A stretch of DNA of 64,000 bases from Halosegnis marinus (GTDB lineage Archaea; Halobacteriota; Halobacteria; Halobacteriales; Haloarculaceae). This document shows positions 42,465 through 49,408 of this stretch, in pieces. Within the stretch, counting starts at the first letter, position 1. Every line of letters starts with the position of its first letter. The stretch lies in NCBI RefSeq assembly GCF_029338355.1, contig NZ_CP119802.1, positions 1,612,001-1,676,000 on the forward strand, written 5' to 3'. The notes under the pieces were generated by a model, which saw only the letters and a program-made list of their open reading frames with translations, did no database searches and had not been told where the DNA came from. A program made the translations under genes and the position numbers.

Positions 42465-42474
42465 AAAGTATTTA
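42465..42474 (+). promoter_or_regulatory. TATA element of the sulfoquinovose-synthase-like gene
   Basis: AAAGTATTTA, centred about 33 bases before the ATG at 42503, immediately upstream of the TrmB-type operator. A start site near 42497-42503 would lie inside or at the end of the operator. Confidence 0.6.
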
Positions 42475-42480
42475 CGCGCA

Positions 42481-42501
42481 GTTACTCACATCGTGAGTAA
42501 C
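42481..42501. promoter_or_regulatory. TrmB-type operator, perfect GTTACTC-N7-GAGTAAC
   Basis: A perfect 7-bp inverted repeat with spacer ACATCGT, ending one base before the ATG at 42503 and beginning just after the TATA box. Contains TACT-N8-GAGTA, the published TrmB consensus. Its position downstream of TATA predicts repression when TrmB is bound (sugar-poor conditions). Confidence 0.8.
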
Positions 42502-42502
42502 C

Positions 42503-43663
42503 ATGTCCATCATCGTCACCGGCGGGGACGGGTACATCGGGTGGCCGACGGCGCTGCGCATCGCGGACCGGACCGACGAGCGCGTCGTCGCGGTCGACAA
42601 CTTCGGGCGACGCGCGTGGGTCGAGGAGGTCGGCGCCGTGAGCGCCACGCCCGTCGCGAGCATCGACGAGCGGCTGGAGGCGGCCCGCGAGGTCCACGGC
42701 CTCTCGAACCTCTCCTTCGTCGAGGGCGACCTCACCGACAAGGCGTTCGTCGAGGAGCTGCTGCAGGTCCACGAGCCCTCCGCGATCGTTCACGCCGCGG
42801 CCCAGCCCTCCGCGCCGTACTCGCAGATCAACGGCGAGCGGGCGAACTTCACCCAGCACAACAACATGGCGGCGACGCGGAACCTCCTGTTCGGCCTCCA
42901 CGAGAACGACCTCGCGGACACGCACTTCATCGAGACGACGACGACCGGCGTCTACGGCGCGCCCGACTTCCCCATCCCCGAGGGCGGCGCGACGATGGAG
43001 CACGAGGGCGAGCGCGACGAGGTGCCGTTCCCGGCGATGGCGGGGAGCTGGTACCACCTCACGAAGAGCCACGACGCCGCGAACATGCGGCTCGCGGCGA
43101 AGCAGTTCGGGGTTCCCATCTCGGACGTGCGCACGGCTATCACCTACGGCACGGAGACCGAGGAGACGCGCGCCGACGACCGGCTGAAGACGCGCTTCGA
43201 CTTCGACTACTACTTCGGCGTCGTCGCCCACCGCTTCGCGGCGCAGGCAGTCGCGGGCTACCCGCTCACCGTCTACGGCAAGGGCGAACAGCGCAAGCCG
43301 TTCGTCTCGCTGGAGGACGCCGTCGAGGGGCTGGCGCGACTCGCGCTCGCCGACGCGCCCGACGAACTCACGGTGTACAACCAGGTGACACGGCCCATCG
43401 CCATCGTGGAGATGGCCGAGACCATCCGGGAGGTCGCGGCGGAGTTCGACCTCGACGTCGAGGTCACCCACGTCGAGAACCCGCGCGACGAGGACGAGGA
43501 ACACCGCATGGAGATCGACAACGACCGCTACATGGACCTCATCGGCGAGCAGCGCGCCACCTTCGCGGACGGCATCGAGGACGTGCTCGCGACGCTGACG
43601 CGCTACGCGGACACCATCGAGGCCCACGAGGACCGCTTCCTGCCCGACGCGCTGCGCGATTAG
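42503..43663 (+). CDS. UDP-sulfoquinovose synthase-like epimerase/dehydratase
   Basis: A 386-residue extended SDR enzyme close to SQD1. It carries TGGDGYIGWPTAL (NAD site with the Trp typical of SQD1), HAAAQPSAPYSQI, ETTTTGVYG, the catalytic-type SWYHLTKSHD and the long SQD1-like substrate segment ISDVRTAITYGTETEET ... YPLTVYGKGEQRKPF. SQD1 converts UDP-glucose and sulfite to UDP-sulfoquinovose; in haloarchaea this would feed sulfated glycans of glycoproteins or glycolipids (inference). Controlled by the TrmB-type site just upstream. Confidence 0.85.
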   Translation: MSIIVTGGDGYIGWPTALRIADRTDERVVAVDNFGRRAWVEEVGAVSATPVASIDERLEAAREVHGLSNLSFVEGDLTDKAFVEELLQVHEPSAIVHAAAQPSAPYSQINGERANFTQHNNMAATRNLLFGLHENDLADTHFIETTTTGVYGAPDFPIPEGGATMEHEGERDEVPFPAMAGSWYHLTKSHDAANMRLAAKQFGVPISDVRTAITYGTETEETRADDRLKTRFDFDYYFGVVAHRFAAQAVAGYPLTVYGKGEQRKPFVSLEDAVEGLARLALADAPDELTVYNQVTRPIAIVEMAETIREVAAEFDLDVEVTHVENPRDEDEEHRMEIDNDRYMDLIGEQRATFADGIEDVLATLTRYADTIEAHEDRFLPDALRD

Positions 43664-44223
43664 ACCTCGCTCGGCAGGTCACCGGTTCCGAGCGACAGCC
43701 GCTCGGAGCGGTAGCGATGGACCAGCCCCGACCCCAACAGGAGGAGCGAACACGCCAGCGCGGTCGGCGCCATCCCGAACAGGACGAACGGGTAGACGCC
43801 GAGCGCGACGGCCGAACACAGTGCCAGACACACCGAGCCCAGGAGCGTGTAGTACGTCCCCCACGAGATCTCCTTCTCGGGGACGATTTCGAGGAACACC
43901 GTCAGCTCCTCCAGCGAGTCGGTCGGCTCGACCGTACCGCGGTCGTGGTCGTAGTCGACGACCGCGTTGTCGTCCATCTTCGGGAGGTGTGACTGCTGGA
44001 GCGCGTTGTACACGCGCCGACGCTGCTGGGCGCTCACCGCCGACGGCTCGGTGTCGTTCTCCCACGCGGCGACCTGCCGGGAGAGCGTCCGGAGGTCCGT
44101 CGCGCCGTCGCGCTGGAGCGAGTGGACCACCATCCGCCGTCGCTCGTTGCTGATGGTCTCGAACATCTCCTGCCGGCTGGGTCCCTCGTCGTCCCCCGAC
44201 GACTCCGCCGCTGCTGCCCCCAT
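43660..44223 (-). CDS. Membrane-anchored winged-helix regulator (DUF7344-type)
   Basis: 187 residues. An N-terminal ArsR-like winged helix (EMFETISNERRRMVVHSLQRD ... RRRVYNALQQSHLPKMDDNAVV) precedes two transmembrane helices (about 123-143 and 147-168). This HTH-plus-TM layout is that of the haloarchaeal DUF7344 group, whose members usually control neighbouring genes. It is divergent from the surface-protein genes at 44461 and 45533, the probable targets. The TATA sits inside a palindrome, CAGATT-A-AATCTG (44248-44260), about 27-30 bases before its ATG, hinting at autoregulation. Confidence 0.85.
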   Translation of the reverse strand: MGAAAAESSGDDEGPSRQEMFETISNERRRMVVHSLQRDGATDLRTLSRQVAAWENDTEPSAVSAQQRRRVYNALQQSHLPKMDDNAVVDYDHDRGTVEPTDSLEELTVFLEIVPEKEISWGTYYTLLGSVCLALCSAVALGVYPFVLFGMAPTALACSLLLLGSGLVHRYRSERLSLGTGDLPSEV

Positions 44224-44460: not shown

Positions 44461-45522
44461 ATGTCCGAAGACGACAGCACGAACGTCAGTCGGCGCAGCG
44501 TACTCGGTGGCATCGCGGGACTCGCGGTCGCGGGGAGCGGCCTCGCGGCGGTCTCCTCAACGGCGAGCGCGAACAGTTCGGTTTCCATCACGTCCGCGGA
44601 CGCCAGCGCGACGCTGGACCGCGGTGAACTCACCAGCCTGACTATCAACCCGACGTTCACGGTGAACTGGACGGGGCTCGACGACGCCGTCGGCAAGGTG
44701 TTCTGGCTCGTCGAGGCGAGCGTCGACGGCGGGGACTTCTACCCGCTGTTCCGCGCGACGCCGTGGCTGACCGCCGACCAGATCGGGACCACCGGCTCGT
44801 ACGCCGTGGAGCCGTCGTTCGAGGAGGCGCTCAACGCGGACGACCGCTTCGACGACGGGAGCGGCCCGGACTACTCCGCCGGTCCGCTGGTCGTGGCCGA
44901 CGAGCAGGGCCGGCCCGACTACGCGAACTACGACTTCGGGAGCATCTCCGGGAACATCACGTACGAGTCGTTCATGAACGGTACGAGCATCGGGGGCGCG
45001 GACGACTACCCCGGCGCGCACGAGGACGGCGGCTGGCAGAACAACTACTGGGACGTCGACGCCGGTTACTACGGCGCCGCGTCCGACACCACGCCGTTCA
45101 ACGAGACGACGGACGGGGAGACGAAGACGACGGACGTCACGCTCCGCTACACCTTCGAGTTCCAGCGCCCGAACCTCTCGCAGCTGAAGTACCGCGTCGA
45201 CTTCGCGAACTACGACGGGCCGGAGGCGGGGGCGACGCAGTTCACCGAGCTCTCCGTCGCCGAGCAGAAGCGCTTCGCCGCGGAACAGATCGACGGGCTG
45301 GAGGAGTCCGACATCGACGACGGGAACTCGAAGCTCGTGATGAACGGCGAGGACGGGTTCCCGGAGTTCGGGACGCCGTCGGGCCTCTCCTACAGCCAGA
45401 TCCGGGACAACGCCGACGCGCACCCCGGTCTACTCTCGGCGACGACGACCTTCACGGTTAGCGTCACCAACAAGGCTTCGAGCAGCGACTCCACCGGAAC
45501 CTCCGGCGCCGAGGCCGAGTAA
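44461..45522 (+). CDS. Tat-exported surface protein of unknown family
   Basis: 353 residues. The N-terminus NVSRRSVLGGIAGLAVAGSG is a Tat signal (twin Arg 11-12) with a probable cut after TASA. The mature part is acidic, aromatic-rich and predicted beta-rich (FWLVEASVDGGDFYPLFRA, DGGWQNNYWDVDAGYYGAAS, VTLRYTFEFQRP), with NGTS, NITY and NETT sequons. It ends in a Ser/Thr/Gly tail. No lipobox or C-terminal anchor is seen, so it may be secreted. It is followed after 10 bases by the surface-protein gene at 45533 and faces the membrane regulator gene. I do not recognise the family. Confidence 0.75.
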   Translation: MSEDDSTNVSRRSVLGGIAGLAVAGSGLAAVSSTASANSSVSITSADASATLDRGELTSLTINPTFTVNWTGLDDAVGKVFWLVEASVDGGDFYPLFRATPWLTADQIGTTGSYAVEPSFEEALNADDRFDDGSGPDYSAGPLVVADEQGRPDYANYDFGSISGNITYESFMNGTSIGGADDYPGAHEDGGWQNNYWDVDAGYYGAASDTTPFNETTDGETKTTDVTLRYTFEFQRPNLSQLKYRVDFANYDGPEAGATQFTELSVAEQKRFAAEQIDGLEESDIDDGNSKLVMNGEDGFPEFGTPSGLSYSQIRDNADAHPGLLSATTTFTVSVTNKASSSDSTGTSGAEAE

Positions 45523-45532
45523 GTAGGCCCGC

Positions 45533-47002
45533 ATGGACGCCAACGGCAGTTCGGGCGGCGACCGCTCCGACGCCGGCAGCGGCGCGCTTCCCGTGACAAA
45601 GCGCACCGCCATCGTCGCGCTGCTCGCCGCTATCGTCGTCCTCGGCGCGGGGGCGGGCATCACGGCCACGCTCACCGAGGACGCGCCCTCCCGCGTGGCG
45701 GCGTCGGACTCGGCCGACGGGGCCGGCGCGTCCCTCTCGCTCCCGGACGGCGGGACGACCACCGTCTCCTTCGCCGGGACGCGCGTCGCCGAGAACGCGA
45801 GCGGCGTGGGACTCGACTCGCTGAACGTCTCCGTCGACGGCGGCGGCGACCTCACGCTGTCCGGCGTCAGGAAGACCGACGGCTCCGCCGTCGACACCGC
45901 CCCGACGAACGCGACGGCGGGCTACCTGAACGTCGGCCACGAGGGGGACGCCGAGATAGACAGCGTCACGTTCCGCTTCACCGTCTCGGCGGCGACGCTC
46001 CGCGACGCCGGTATCGAACCCGGCGACGTGACGCTGTACCGTTACCACGACGGCGAGTGGCGGGCGCTGGAGACGGCGCTCGACGCGGCCTCGGCCGATG
46101 CGTACACCTTCCGGGCGGTCTCGCCCGGGCTCTCCGTGTTCGGCGTCGGCCCCTCGCGGGCGAACGACCGCTCGAACGCGGGCGAAAACGGGAACGGAAA
46201 CGGGAACGGAAACGGCAACGGCGGCGGCCCGCCGCCGGACACTACGCCGACCGCGACCCCGACGCCCACGGAGACGCCAACGGCTACGCCGACGGCTACA
46301 CCCACTGCGGAACCGAACGGAACGGCGACGCCGACCGCCACAGCTACACCGACCGCGACACCGACGCCGGAACCGAACGAAACGGCGACAGCGACTCCGA
46401 CGCCGACCGGGACCGACGACGGCGGCTCGGGGGGTGTCTCTCCGTCGAATCCGCCGCCCGAGAACCCGCCGCCGACGAACGGCGGTGGAGGCGGTGGTGG
46501 CGGTAGTGGCGGCGGTGGTGGCGACGCCCCGCCGGACCGCGGCTTCGACGCGACCGTCCGAGTCGCCGCGCCGAACCCCGAGCCGATACGCTCGGACCGG
46601 GGCGACGTGGACGTCGTCGCCGGCTCGGTCGCGGGCGAGGTGTCGTGGTCCGACGACCGCGCGACCCGTGCCGTGGTCACGGTGACCGTGTCGGGCGACG
46701 GCGACTCCCGGGAGCTCCGCAACGTCACCGTTCCGCTCGACGGCGAGACCTCGCTGTCGCTCGCCGAGGCGCTGACCGACACCCGGCTGCTGTACGCGAC
46801 CGGACCGCGCGCCGACGCGCTGTCGGTGGACGAGGACGGCCGTACCGCGACCTACCGACGGGTCGTGACGGTGGCGGTGACGCTGTACGACGGTGAGGAG
46901 CGCCTGACGACCGCGAGCGACGACGACGGCCTCACGGTCGTCGTCACGAACGTCGAGGCCGCCAGCGAGGGGGACGGGCGTTCCGGCTCCAGCGCCGCGT
47001 AG
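45533..47002 (+). CDS. PGF-pre-PGF-like surface glycoprotein with mucin-like linker
   Basis: 489 residues. A cytoplasmic ~24-residue tail and a signal anchor (TAIVALLAAIVVLGAGAGITA) are followed by a ~145-residue domain with TVSFAGTRVAENASGVGLDS and VTLYRYHDGEWRALETALD, resembling the PGF-pre-PGF domain of archaeal surface proteins. Next come an Asn-Gly repeat, about 75 residues of Thr-Pro/Glu repeats, a Pro run and a poly-Gly run (about residues 215-335), then a second beta-rich domain (FDATVRVAAPNPEPIRSDRG). The Thr-Pro stretch suits dense O-glycosylation. No PGF-CTERM sorting signal is visible. Confidence 0.8.
   Translation: MDANGSSGGDRSDAGSGALPVTKRTAIVALLAAIVVLGAGAGITATLTEDAPSRVAASDSADGAGASLSLPDGGTTTVSFAGTRVAENASGVGLDSLNVSVDGGGDLTLSGVRKTDGSAVDTAPTNATAGYLNVGHEGDAEIDSVTFRFTVSAATLRDAGIEPGDVTLYRYHDGEWRALETALDAASADAYTFRAVSPGLSVFGVGPSRANDRSNAGENGNGNGNGNGNGGGPPPDTTPTATPTPTETPTATPTATPTAEPNGTATPTATATPTATPTPEPNETATATPTPTGTDDGGSGGVSPSNPPPENPPPTNGGGGGGGGSGGGGGDAPPDRGFDATVRVAAPNPEPIRSDRGDVDVVAGSVAGEVSWSDDRATRAVVTVTVSGDGDSRELRNVTVPLDGETSLSLAEALTDTRLLYATGPRADALSVDEDGRTATYRRVVTVAVTLYDGEERLTTASDDDGLTVVVTNVEAASEGDGRSGSSAA
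46186..46530 (+). repeat. Low-complexity repeats encoding (NG)n, (TP)n and (G)n linkers
   Basis: Inside the surface glycoprotein gene: tandem GGGAACGGAAAC units near 46190-46225, then imperfect repeats of ACGCCGACC-like hexamers to about 46410, and GGTGGTGGCGG runs at 46485-46530. Such repeats slip readily, so linker length may vary between strains. Confidence 0.75.
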
Positions 47003-47456: not shown

Positions 47457-48386
47457 ATGCACGTCCTCGTCACCGGCGGCTGCGGCTACATCGGGAGCGT
47501 CCTCGTCCCCCTGTTGCGCGACGACGACCGCGTGGACCGCGTCACGGTCCTCGACGACTTCTCGGCCTCCTCGCCGCGGGCGCTGTTCGGGCAACTCGGC
47601 GACGACACCGTCCGCTTCCGCCGCGGCGACGTCCGCCAGTACGGCGACGTGGAGTCGGCCGCCCGGGGGGCCGACGCCGTCGTCCACCTCGCGGCCATCA
47701 CGGGCGCGGCGAGCACCCACGACCGCCGCGAGGAGACGTTCGAGACGAACTACGAGGGGACGCGCAACGTGCTCAACGCGGCGGGGAAGGTCGGCGTCGA
47801 CAACGTCGTGCTCGCCTCCTCGTGTAACATCTACGGGCGCGCCCCGACGACGGACATCGACGAGTCGGTCGAGCCGGACCCGATCAACCCCTACGCCGAG
47901 ACGAAGTACGAGTCCGAGTCGCTGTTGCGCGAGGCGCGCGAGGAGTTCGGCTTCGACGGCGTCGCCCTGCGGATGGCGACGAACTACGGGAACGCGCCCG
48001 GCGTCCGCTTCAACCTCGTCGTCAACCACTTCGTGTTCCGGGCGCTGACCGGGCGGGCGCTCACGGTGTACGGCGACGGGTCGAACTGGCGGCCGTTCGT
48101 CCACGTCCGCGACGCCGCCCGCGCGTACAAGCACGCCGCGCTCGCCCCCGACGACTGGGACCGCGAGGTGTACAACGTCGGGTCGAACGACGGCAACTAC
48201 CGCGTCGCGGAGATCGCCGAGGTCGTGAGCGAGGAGGTCGCGCCCGTCGACGTGACCTACCTGGAGGACGAACACCCCGGCCCCTCGTACCACGTGAACT
48301 TCGACCGCCTCGCCCGAACCGGGTTCGGGACGGAGTGGACGCTCCGCGAGGGGGTCCGCGACCTCCGCGACGCCTTCCGCGGGTAG
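47457..48386 (+). CDS. NAD-dependent nucleotide-sugar epimerase/dehydratase
   Basis: A 309-residue extended SDR protein: GGCGYIGS NAD motif at the N-terminus, VHLAAITG, SSCNIYG, the catalytic YAETK and a C-terminal substrate domain with GDGSNWRPFVHVRDAARAY. The start MHVLVTGGCGYIG is standard. A TATA-like GGCTATACG (47425-47433) is about 27 bases upstream, so it is probably transcribed on its own. It has no TrmB-type site, unlike the epimerase gene that follows. Likely substrate UDP- or GDP-linked hexose; unassigned. Confidence 0.87.
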   Translation: MHVLVTGGCGYIGSVLVPLLRDDDRVDRVTVLDDFSASSPRALFGQLGDDTVRFRRGDVRQYGDVESAARGADAVVHLAAITGAASTHDRREETFETNYEGTRNVLNAAGKVGVDNVVLASSCNIYGRAPTTDIDESVEPDPINPYAETKYESESLLREAREEFGFDGVALRMATNYGNAPGVRFNLVVNHFVFRALTGRALTVYGDGSNWRPFVHVRDAARAYKHAALAPDDWDREVYNVGSNDGNYRVAEIAEVVSEEVAPVDVTYLEDEHPGPSYHVNFDRLARTGFGTEWTLREGVRDLRDAFRG

Positions 48387-48430
48387 CCGCGCGGGCGGGG
48401 GAGAGGACAAGAGCCTTACCGGGCGTCTCC

Positions 48431-48451
48431 GTTACTCGGAACATGAGTAAC
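48431..48451. promoter_or_regulatory. TrmB-type operator covering the start codon, perfect GTTACTC-N7-GAGTAAC
   Basis: A perfect 7-bp inverted repeat with spacer GGAACAT. The ATG at 48443 begins inside the spacer and the codons ATG-AGT-AAC form the right arm. A weak TATA (CCTTAC, 48414-48419) is 27 bases before the ATG, so the operator covers the presumed transcription and translation start. Confidence 0.8.
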
Positions 48452-49408
48452 TCGACGCACGTCGCGATAACGGGCGCGGCGGGCTTCATCGGGAGCCGGG
48501 TGGTCGGGCAGTTGCGCCGCGACCACCCCGACTGGGAGCTGACGGCCATCGACAACTTCTATCTCGGCGACGTGCGCGAGGTCGGCGACACGACGGTCGA
48601 GCACGTCGACATCCGCCACCGCGACCAGCTGACCGACGCGCTCGACGGGGCGGACGCGGTGTTGCATCTCGCCGCCATCTCCGGCGTGGACGACTGCGAC
48701 GACAAGCCGGACCTCGCCTACGAGGTCAACGTCGTCGGGACGAACAACGTCGCCTACTTCTGCGAGCGGACGGGCGCCGGGCTCGCGTTCCCGTTCTCGA
48801 TGGCGGTCATCGGCGACCCGACCGACTTCCCAATCACGACCGACATGGCCCGCGACCCGCTGAACTGGTACGGCGAGACGAAGGTGCTCGGCGAGCGGGC
48901 CGTCGAGACGATGGCCGACGGCTCCTTCCCCGCGGTGCAGTTCATGATATCGAACCTCTACGGCGAGCACGCCGTCGGCGACCGCGCCGTCTCGAAGGGG
49001 ACGGTCATCAACTTCTTCGTGAACCGGGCGCTCGCCGGGGAGCCGCTCACGGTGTACGAGCCGGGGACGCAGGCGCGCAACTTCGTCCACGTCCGCGACG
49101 TGGCCGACGCCTTCTGCCGGGCCGCCGAGCGGCTCGTCGCCCGGCGTGCCGCCGGGGAGACGGGGTCGGAGGCGTACGAGGTGGCGAGCGACGAGGACCC
49201 CGGCGTGATGACGGTCGCCGAAACCGTGGCCCGCGTCGCGAGCGAGGAGCGGGGGCTGGACGTGGACATCGAACTCGTGGCGAACCCGCGCAGCGGCGAG
49301 ACGCTCGTGGACTCCTTCGCCGTCGATACGACGGCCATCGAGCGGGACCTCGGGTGGACGCCGACGGAGAGCGTCGAGGCGTCGGTCCGCGACCTGCTGG
49401 CCGAGTAG
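48443..49408 (+). CDS. NAD-dependent epimerase/dehydratase, TrmB-site controlled
   Basis: A 321-residue extended SDR enzyme: GAAGFIGS (NAD site), VLHLAAISGVDDC, FSMAVIGD, the catalytic-type WYGETK and a substrate domain with SNLYGEHAVGDRAVSKG and EPGTQARNFVHVRD. The start MSNSTHVAITGAAG (48443) is fixed by the NAD motif and the leaderless promoter; the longer upstream frame is rejected. It follows the epimerase at 47457 by 56 bases yet carries its own operator-bearing promoter. The substrate is unknown; nucleotide-sugar synthesis for surface glycans is the best guess. Confidence 0.87.
   Translation: MSNSTHVAITGAAGFIGSRVVGQLRRDHPDWELTAIDNFYLGDVREVGDTTVEHVDIRHRDQLTDALDGADAVLHLAAISGVDDCDDKPDLAYEVNVVGTNNVAYFCERTGAGLAFPFSMAVIGDPTDFPITTDMARDPLNWYGETKVLGERAVETMADGSFPAVQFMISNLYGEHAVGDRAVSKGTVINFFVNRALAGEPLTVYEPGTQARNFVHVRDVADAFCRAAERLVARRAAGETGSEAYEVASDEDPGVMTVAETVARVASEERGLDVDIELVANPRSGETLVDSFAVDTTAIERDLGWTPTESVEASVRDLLAE

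Follow-up and report, generated by a model that had tools for sequence, protein, structure and literature searches.

The closest described relatives of the system predicted here belong to the TrmB family of regulators. Canonical TrmB (VNG1451C in Halobacterium salinarum and HAH_1548 in Haloarcula hispanica) joins a winged helix of the PF01978 family to a sugar-binding domain, PF11495, responds to glucose, and governs gluconeogenesis and central metabolism; its motif in Halobacterium is TACT-N7-8-GAGTA (PMC4158304). TrmBL2 of Pyrococcus furiosus (264 amino acids [aa]) lacks the canonical sugar domain and, as an abundant protein of the chromosome, binds coding regions as well. The TrmBL1/Tgr regulon of the Thermococcales, whose targets serve sugar uptake and glycolysis/gluconeogenesis, has an inverted repeat (TATCAC-N5-GTGATA) placed relative to the TATA box, and the position of the site predicts repression or activation. 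N-glycosylation of the S-layer in Haloferax and Haloarcula is initiated by AglJ; the Har. hispanica homolog is HAH_1214, and the S-layer N-glycan of this species is the sulfoquinovosamine-Glc-Gal trisaccharide 6-sulfo-QuiN-(1,6)-[Glc-(1,2)]-Gal (PMC9943897).

Within the window (the entire 64-kb stretch of DNA analyzed), a 7-7-7 palindrome at nucleotide-sugar genes is very probably the operator of a dedicated TrmB-family paralog that would bind it and repress genes for the precursor of a sulfated S-layer N-glycan, and the same regulator-site pair is found across many related species. The paralog shares the PF01978 winged helix with canonical TrmB, and the core of its putative operator fits the Halobacterium motif, but it scores below the PF11495 cut-off, its operator is longer, perfect sites number about 1 to 3 per genome, and its predicted targets are nucleotide-sugar and glycan genes. 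It is similar in length to TrmBL2 and likewise without the canonical sugar domain, but its specific sites are few. With the TrmBL1/Tgr regulon it has in common the protein family, an inverted repeat placed relative to TATA and a site position from which the direction of control can be predicted, whereas motif and targets differ. As for AglJ-initiated glycosylation, a third operator precedes an aglJ unit.

Perfect copies of a probable operator at nucleotide-sugar genes

The sequence GTTACTC-GGAACAT-GAGTAAC at 48431-48451 is a perfect inverted repeat without strand assignment, its arms at 48431-48437 and 48445-48451 flanking a spacer at 48438-48444. It lies over the start codon (ATG, 48443-48445, plus strand) of a predicted target gene, an SDR of the NAD-dependent epimerase/dehydratase type (48443-49408, plus strand; PF01370, 142 bits), and its right arm runs through ATG-AGT-AAC, the first three codons. 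Orthologs of this SDR are present in most Haloarculaceae, and its relatives in the PDB are UDP-glucuronate decarboxylase and UDP-glucose 4-epimerase. The other perfect operator, GTTACTC-ACATCGT-GAGTAAC (42481-42501, likewise unstranded), stands 1 nucleotide (nt) before the ATG of a UDP-sulfoquinovose synthase-like gene of the SQD1 family (42503-43663, plus strand), whose product matches the Arabidopsis SQD1 structures over 371 residues (265 bits, E 1e-77) and scores 353.8 bits against the NCBIfam equivalog NF041015, below the cut-off of 575.

The sequence-only reading had described the site at 48431 as a second perfect copy with the ATG inside it, which is exact, and had held that two perfect copies within 6 kb, both at nucleotide-sugar genes, are very unlikely to be a product of chance, which the counts bear out. 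The two copies are 5,950 bp apart, the best other match in the window has two mismatches, and the whole genome (2.81 Mb, approximately 70% G+C) contains three perfect copies, against expectations under a first-order Markov model of 4e-5 per 64 kb and 0.0018 per genome. All three sit at glycan genes or at the regulator/aglJ promoter.

Upstream sequence is available for 94 SQD1 orthologs of the window's family, and 88 of these genes are preceded by an operator with at most two mismatches, in every case at -20 to -25 from the ATG. The six without an operator (G021, G083, G084, G086, G115, and G141) all lack the regulator too, and the SQD1 promoter of G115 keeps the right arm only, at the old position. 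When the genome with a broken regulator (G012) is counted as regulator-negative, SQD1 operator and regulator are associated at a Fisher P of 9e-9. Throughout the SQD1 set, the first base of the spacer is invariably R and the last invariably Y, giving the extended site GTTACTCR-N5-YGAGTAAC.

Two features of the SQD1-like gene lie apart from its promoter. A DUF7344 protein (PF24035, 99 bits) is encoded convergently at 43660-44223 (minus strand), with a 4-base overlap of the SQD1 3' end. The SQD1 orthologs of G133, G145, G069, and G136 come in two halves about 1 kb apart, which in three of these genomes fall within a single open frame of about 740 aa, and the break, near residue 185-190, is a probable intein.

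The start-codon operator and operon history

A second SDR epimerase (47457-48386, plus strand; PF01370, 176 bits) lies just upstream of the SDR gene. It had been read as having no operator, and indeed its best match within 200 nt upstream has 7 mismatches, and no match in the window with three or fewer mismatches lies nearby. SQD1, epimerase, and SDR are consecutive in most relatives, with a single operator heading the operon (this gene order is seen in G085, G067, G083, L293, and L294), and the epimerase at 47457-48386 corresponds to the middle gene of this ancestral operon. SQD1 is split from the epimerase-SDR pair by about 3.8 kb in the window genome and by about 10 kb in Halorarius halobius (G066), and in both genomes a separate operator covers the start codon of the SDR. 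Because G085 and G067 keep the operon intact and nonetheless have the internal start-codon operator, this operator is not the simple outcome of an operon break. The expectation that only one of the two neighboring epimerases responds stands, by position, for the window genome but not for most relatives, in which the SQD1 operator heads an operon containing both genes. The predicted lone response is thus a derived state. The interval between the two operator loci of the window also encodes two secreted-looking proteins (44461-45522 and 45533-47002), the second with long TPTATPT and GNGNGN repeats.

Five genomes, from two genera, have the start-codon operator at precisely -12 to +9. This operator is perfect in the window genome (G000) and otherwise has one (G066, G067, and G085) or two (G087) mismatches, and the start-codon form is confined to these genomes. 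The SDR operator of genus g6 is instead upstream of the ATG, with 2 to 3 mismatches, and at 56 other operon loci no site with three or fewer mismatches was found around the SDR start. Alignment of orthologs, which the sequence-only reading had named as a check on whether the start-codon palindrome is conserved, thus gave a divided answer: the palindrome is kept in two genera, but most SDR orthologs do not have it there, an outcome that the same reading had named as a refutation, because the operator sits once, at the operon head. The five SDR genes with a start-codon operator all use AGT as codon 2, whereas AGT accounts for 4 of the 60 AGY serine codons in ten genes of the window, a bias in keeping with a constraint from the operator on this codon.

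Promoter geometry and probable recognition of the site

Aligning the 88 SQD1 promoters on the operator reveals a BRE/TATA signature, AxAAGATATTTA, 22 to 11 nt upstream of the operator; in the window, the TATA box of the SQD1 promoter is TATTTA at 42469-42474 (plus strand). A matrix built from these promoters, with random window positions as the baseline, identifies a weak BRE/TATA-like box ahead of the window SDR gene (ACAAGAGCCTTAC, 48407-48419, plus strand), which scores 6.8 against a 99th percentile of 5.7. Boxes above the 99th percentile occur in 5 of 5 start-codon SDR promoters, centered 26.5 to 28.5 nt before the ATG (-26.5 in the window gene and -27.5 or -28.5 in its four orthologs). 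This is the spacing expected for transcription starting at the ATG, so the SDR transcript is predicted to be leaderless (a start within 0-5 nt of the start codon), with its start at or near 48443, and the operator would then cover the transcription start. Placement of the operator over a leaderless start, as originally suggested, is therefore probable. Leaderless messages make up 72% of protein-coding transcripts in Haloferax volcanii (PMC4983044).

The bound regulator would block recruitment of RNA polymerase, since the operators sit just downstream of TATA and over the predicted transcription start, and the SDR operator would fall on the start codon and first codons because that transcript is predicted to be leaderless. 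The same positions bear on the opposite sign of control, in which the regulator activates and the operator recruits initiation factors. Haloarchaeal TrmB proteins are able to activate, mostly from sites upstream of promoter elements (PMC10817205), but all examined sites here are downstream of TATA and over the predicted start, which is the repression position in TrmB relatives, and we regard activation as unlikely.

The palindrome could also be read as a 5' mRNA hairpin through which translation is regulated by masking of the start codon. RNA of 48431-48480 does fold, with an 8-bp stem and a minimum free energy of -17.3 kcal/mol (z, -2.2), but the stem requires a transcript from 48431 or upstream, whereas the TATA spacing predicts a start at approximately 48443. 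Moreover, changes in the operator arms were compensated in 0 cases and uncompensated in 9, and the presence of the site follows that of the DNA-binding protein across genomes. The uncompensated changes, along with the fixed R and Y at the spacer ends, favor protein-DNA recognition over a hairpin, which, although the fold is possible, is extremely improbable as the basis of the palindrome.

The TrmB-family paralog and its distribution

The third perfect operator lies outside the window (G000:C1:248869-248889), between a divergent TrmB-family gene and a 53-aa open reading frame (ORF) that is followed by aglJ (TIGR04182, 441 bits; cut-off, 325). The TrmB-family gene, also outside the window (G000:C1:247941-248795, minus strand), encodes a 285-aa protein that matches the PF01978 winged helix over residues 9-74 (63.2 bits; cut-off, 25.6), falls below the cut-off for the PF11495 sugar-binding domain (17.9 versus 22.2 bits), and reaches 37.9 of 500 bits against NF047392. 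By sequence, its closest solved structure is that of TrmBL2 (5bpd; E 1.5e-11, residues 7-180). The AlphaFold2 model (mean pLDDT, 57) is confident in the DNA-binding domain alone, so we draw nothing from it about an effector domain.

This third operator is within the small-ORF promoter, about 94 nt upstream of the regulator start in the window genome, and G085 and G087 have no operator at the regulator/small-ORF promoter; autorepression of the regulator is accordingly unsupported. The microprotein at L001:1523-1684 (G000:C1, outside the window) and its equivalents, 21 distinct sequences over several families, are 35 to 58 aa long and start 0 to 1 nt past the operator. They have the core DGCGCxE(V/I/M)WEHxSExR (with WKH in the window genome), aglJ is the next gene in several genomes, and no Pfam match to the microprotein was found.

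Among 293 Halobacteriales genomes, 101 have an ortholog of the regulator at a threshold of E ≤ 1e-40. Of these 101 genomes, 87 contain a perfect site, against none of the 192 regulator-negative genomes (Fisher P of 4e-60, uncorrected for phylogeny). Fourteen regulator-positive genomes have no perfect site, although one of them, G118, has a site with one mismatch; G012 is discordant in that its regulator is broken while its site is intact. Within the window's genus, regulator and site are both present in G000, G085, and G087 and both missing from G083, G084, and G086, and in genera g25, g44, and g38, sites occur in the few regulator-positive genomes and in no regulator-negative genome. The regulator gene adjoins the SDR gene in several genera (G118, G122, G098, L293, and L294), and the regulator and operator cluster may travel as a unit in some lineages. 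Some of the one-mismatch sites in other genomes may have arisen by chance.

G013, which is presumably Haloarcula hispanica, has one perfect operator at SQD1 and another at the regulator/aglJ promoter. Published ChIP-seq of canonical TrmB in Har. hispanica yielded 15 peaks, none at aglJ (HAH_1214) or the SQD1 operon (PMC10817205). These observations weigh on the view that the site belongs to the metabolic regulon of canonical TrmB and is bound by that protein itself, a view to which the sequence lends some credit, as TACT-CGGAACAT-GAGTA at 48433-48449 (N8) fits TACT-N7-8-GAGTA. Canonical TrmB also influences glucose supply to S-layer glycosylation (PMC10817205). Against it, in addition to the ChIP-seq peaks, PF11495 has zero matches across the window's genome (assembly 96.8% complete), and in genomes where SQD1 remains but the paralog has been lost, the site has gone too. 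On the missing domain and the published peaks we reject canonical TrmB as the binder, a role that we consider very improbable for it. The proposal of TrmB as the binder was thus right as to the family but probably not as to the protein: the binder is likely a different TrmB-family paralog, the one encoded beside the third genomic copy.

A predicted regulon for N-glycan precursors

The 285-aa paralog would bind GTTACTCR-N5-YGAGTAAC, most likely as a dimer, and repress a small regulon made up of the SQD1-epimerase-SDR genes and the microprotein-aglJ unit, with a sugar or nucleotide sugar as its probable effector. The sulfoquinovose synthase-like protein, the two epimerase-like SDRs, and AglJ would fit the supply and the first step of a glycan of the Har. 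hispanica type. Extra operators occur 3 to 4 nt before the starts of two genes in L296 (G047), L287, and L298 (family f5); by eye, the genes are sugar-nucleotidyltransferase-like and alkaline-phosphatase-superfamily phosphodiesterase-like, and they are likely additional members of the regulon.

A more extended and rather doubtful reading is that of a self-contained archaeal N-glycan regulon spanning the order. The TrmB paralog would then sense a nucleotide-sugar or glycan-lipid intermediate, the CGC microprotein would act in feedback, and the start-codon operator would serve as a secondary site, internal to the operon, through which the SDR stayed under control after the operon break.

In the open-access papers searched, we found none that ties aglJ or SQD1 to a regulator of the TrmB family, no description of this regulator or regulon, and no transcription factor described as devoted to N-glycosylation in archaea or to the supply of sulfated surface sugars. 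Judged from sequence, a new regulon under a regulator of a known family is well supported as a prediction. The prediction, which specifies the regulator, the exact operator, and two core targets, is testable in Haloarcula hispanica, a species with a known sulfoquinovosamine N-glycan, and the SDR gene offers a concrete case in which, owing to a leaderless start, a repressor site and the first codons would overlap.
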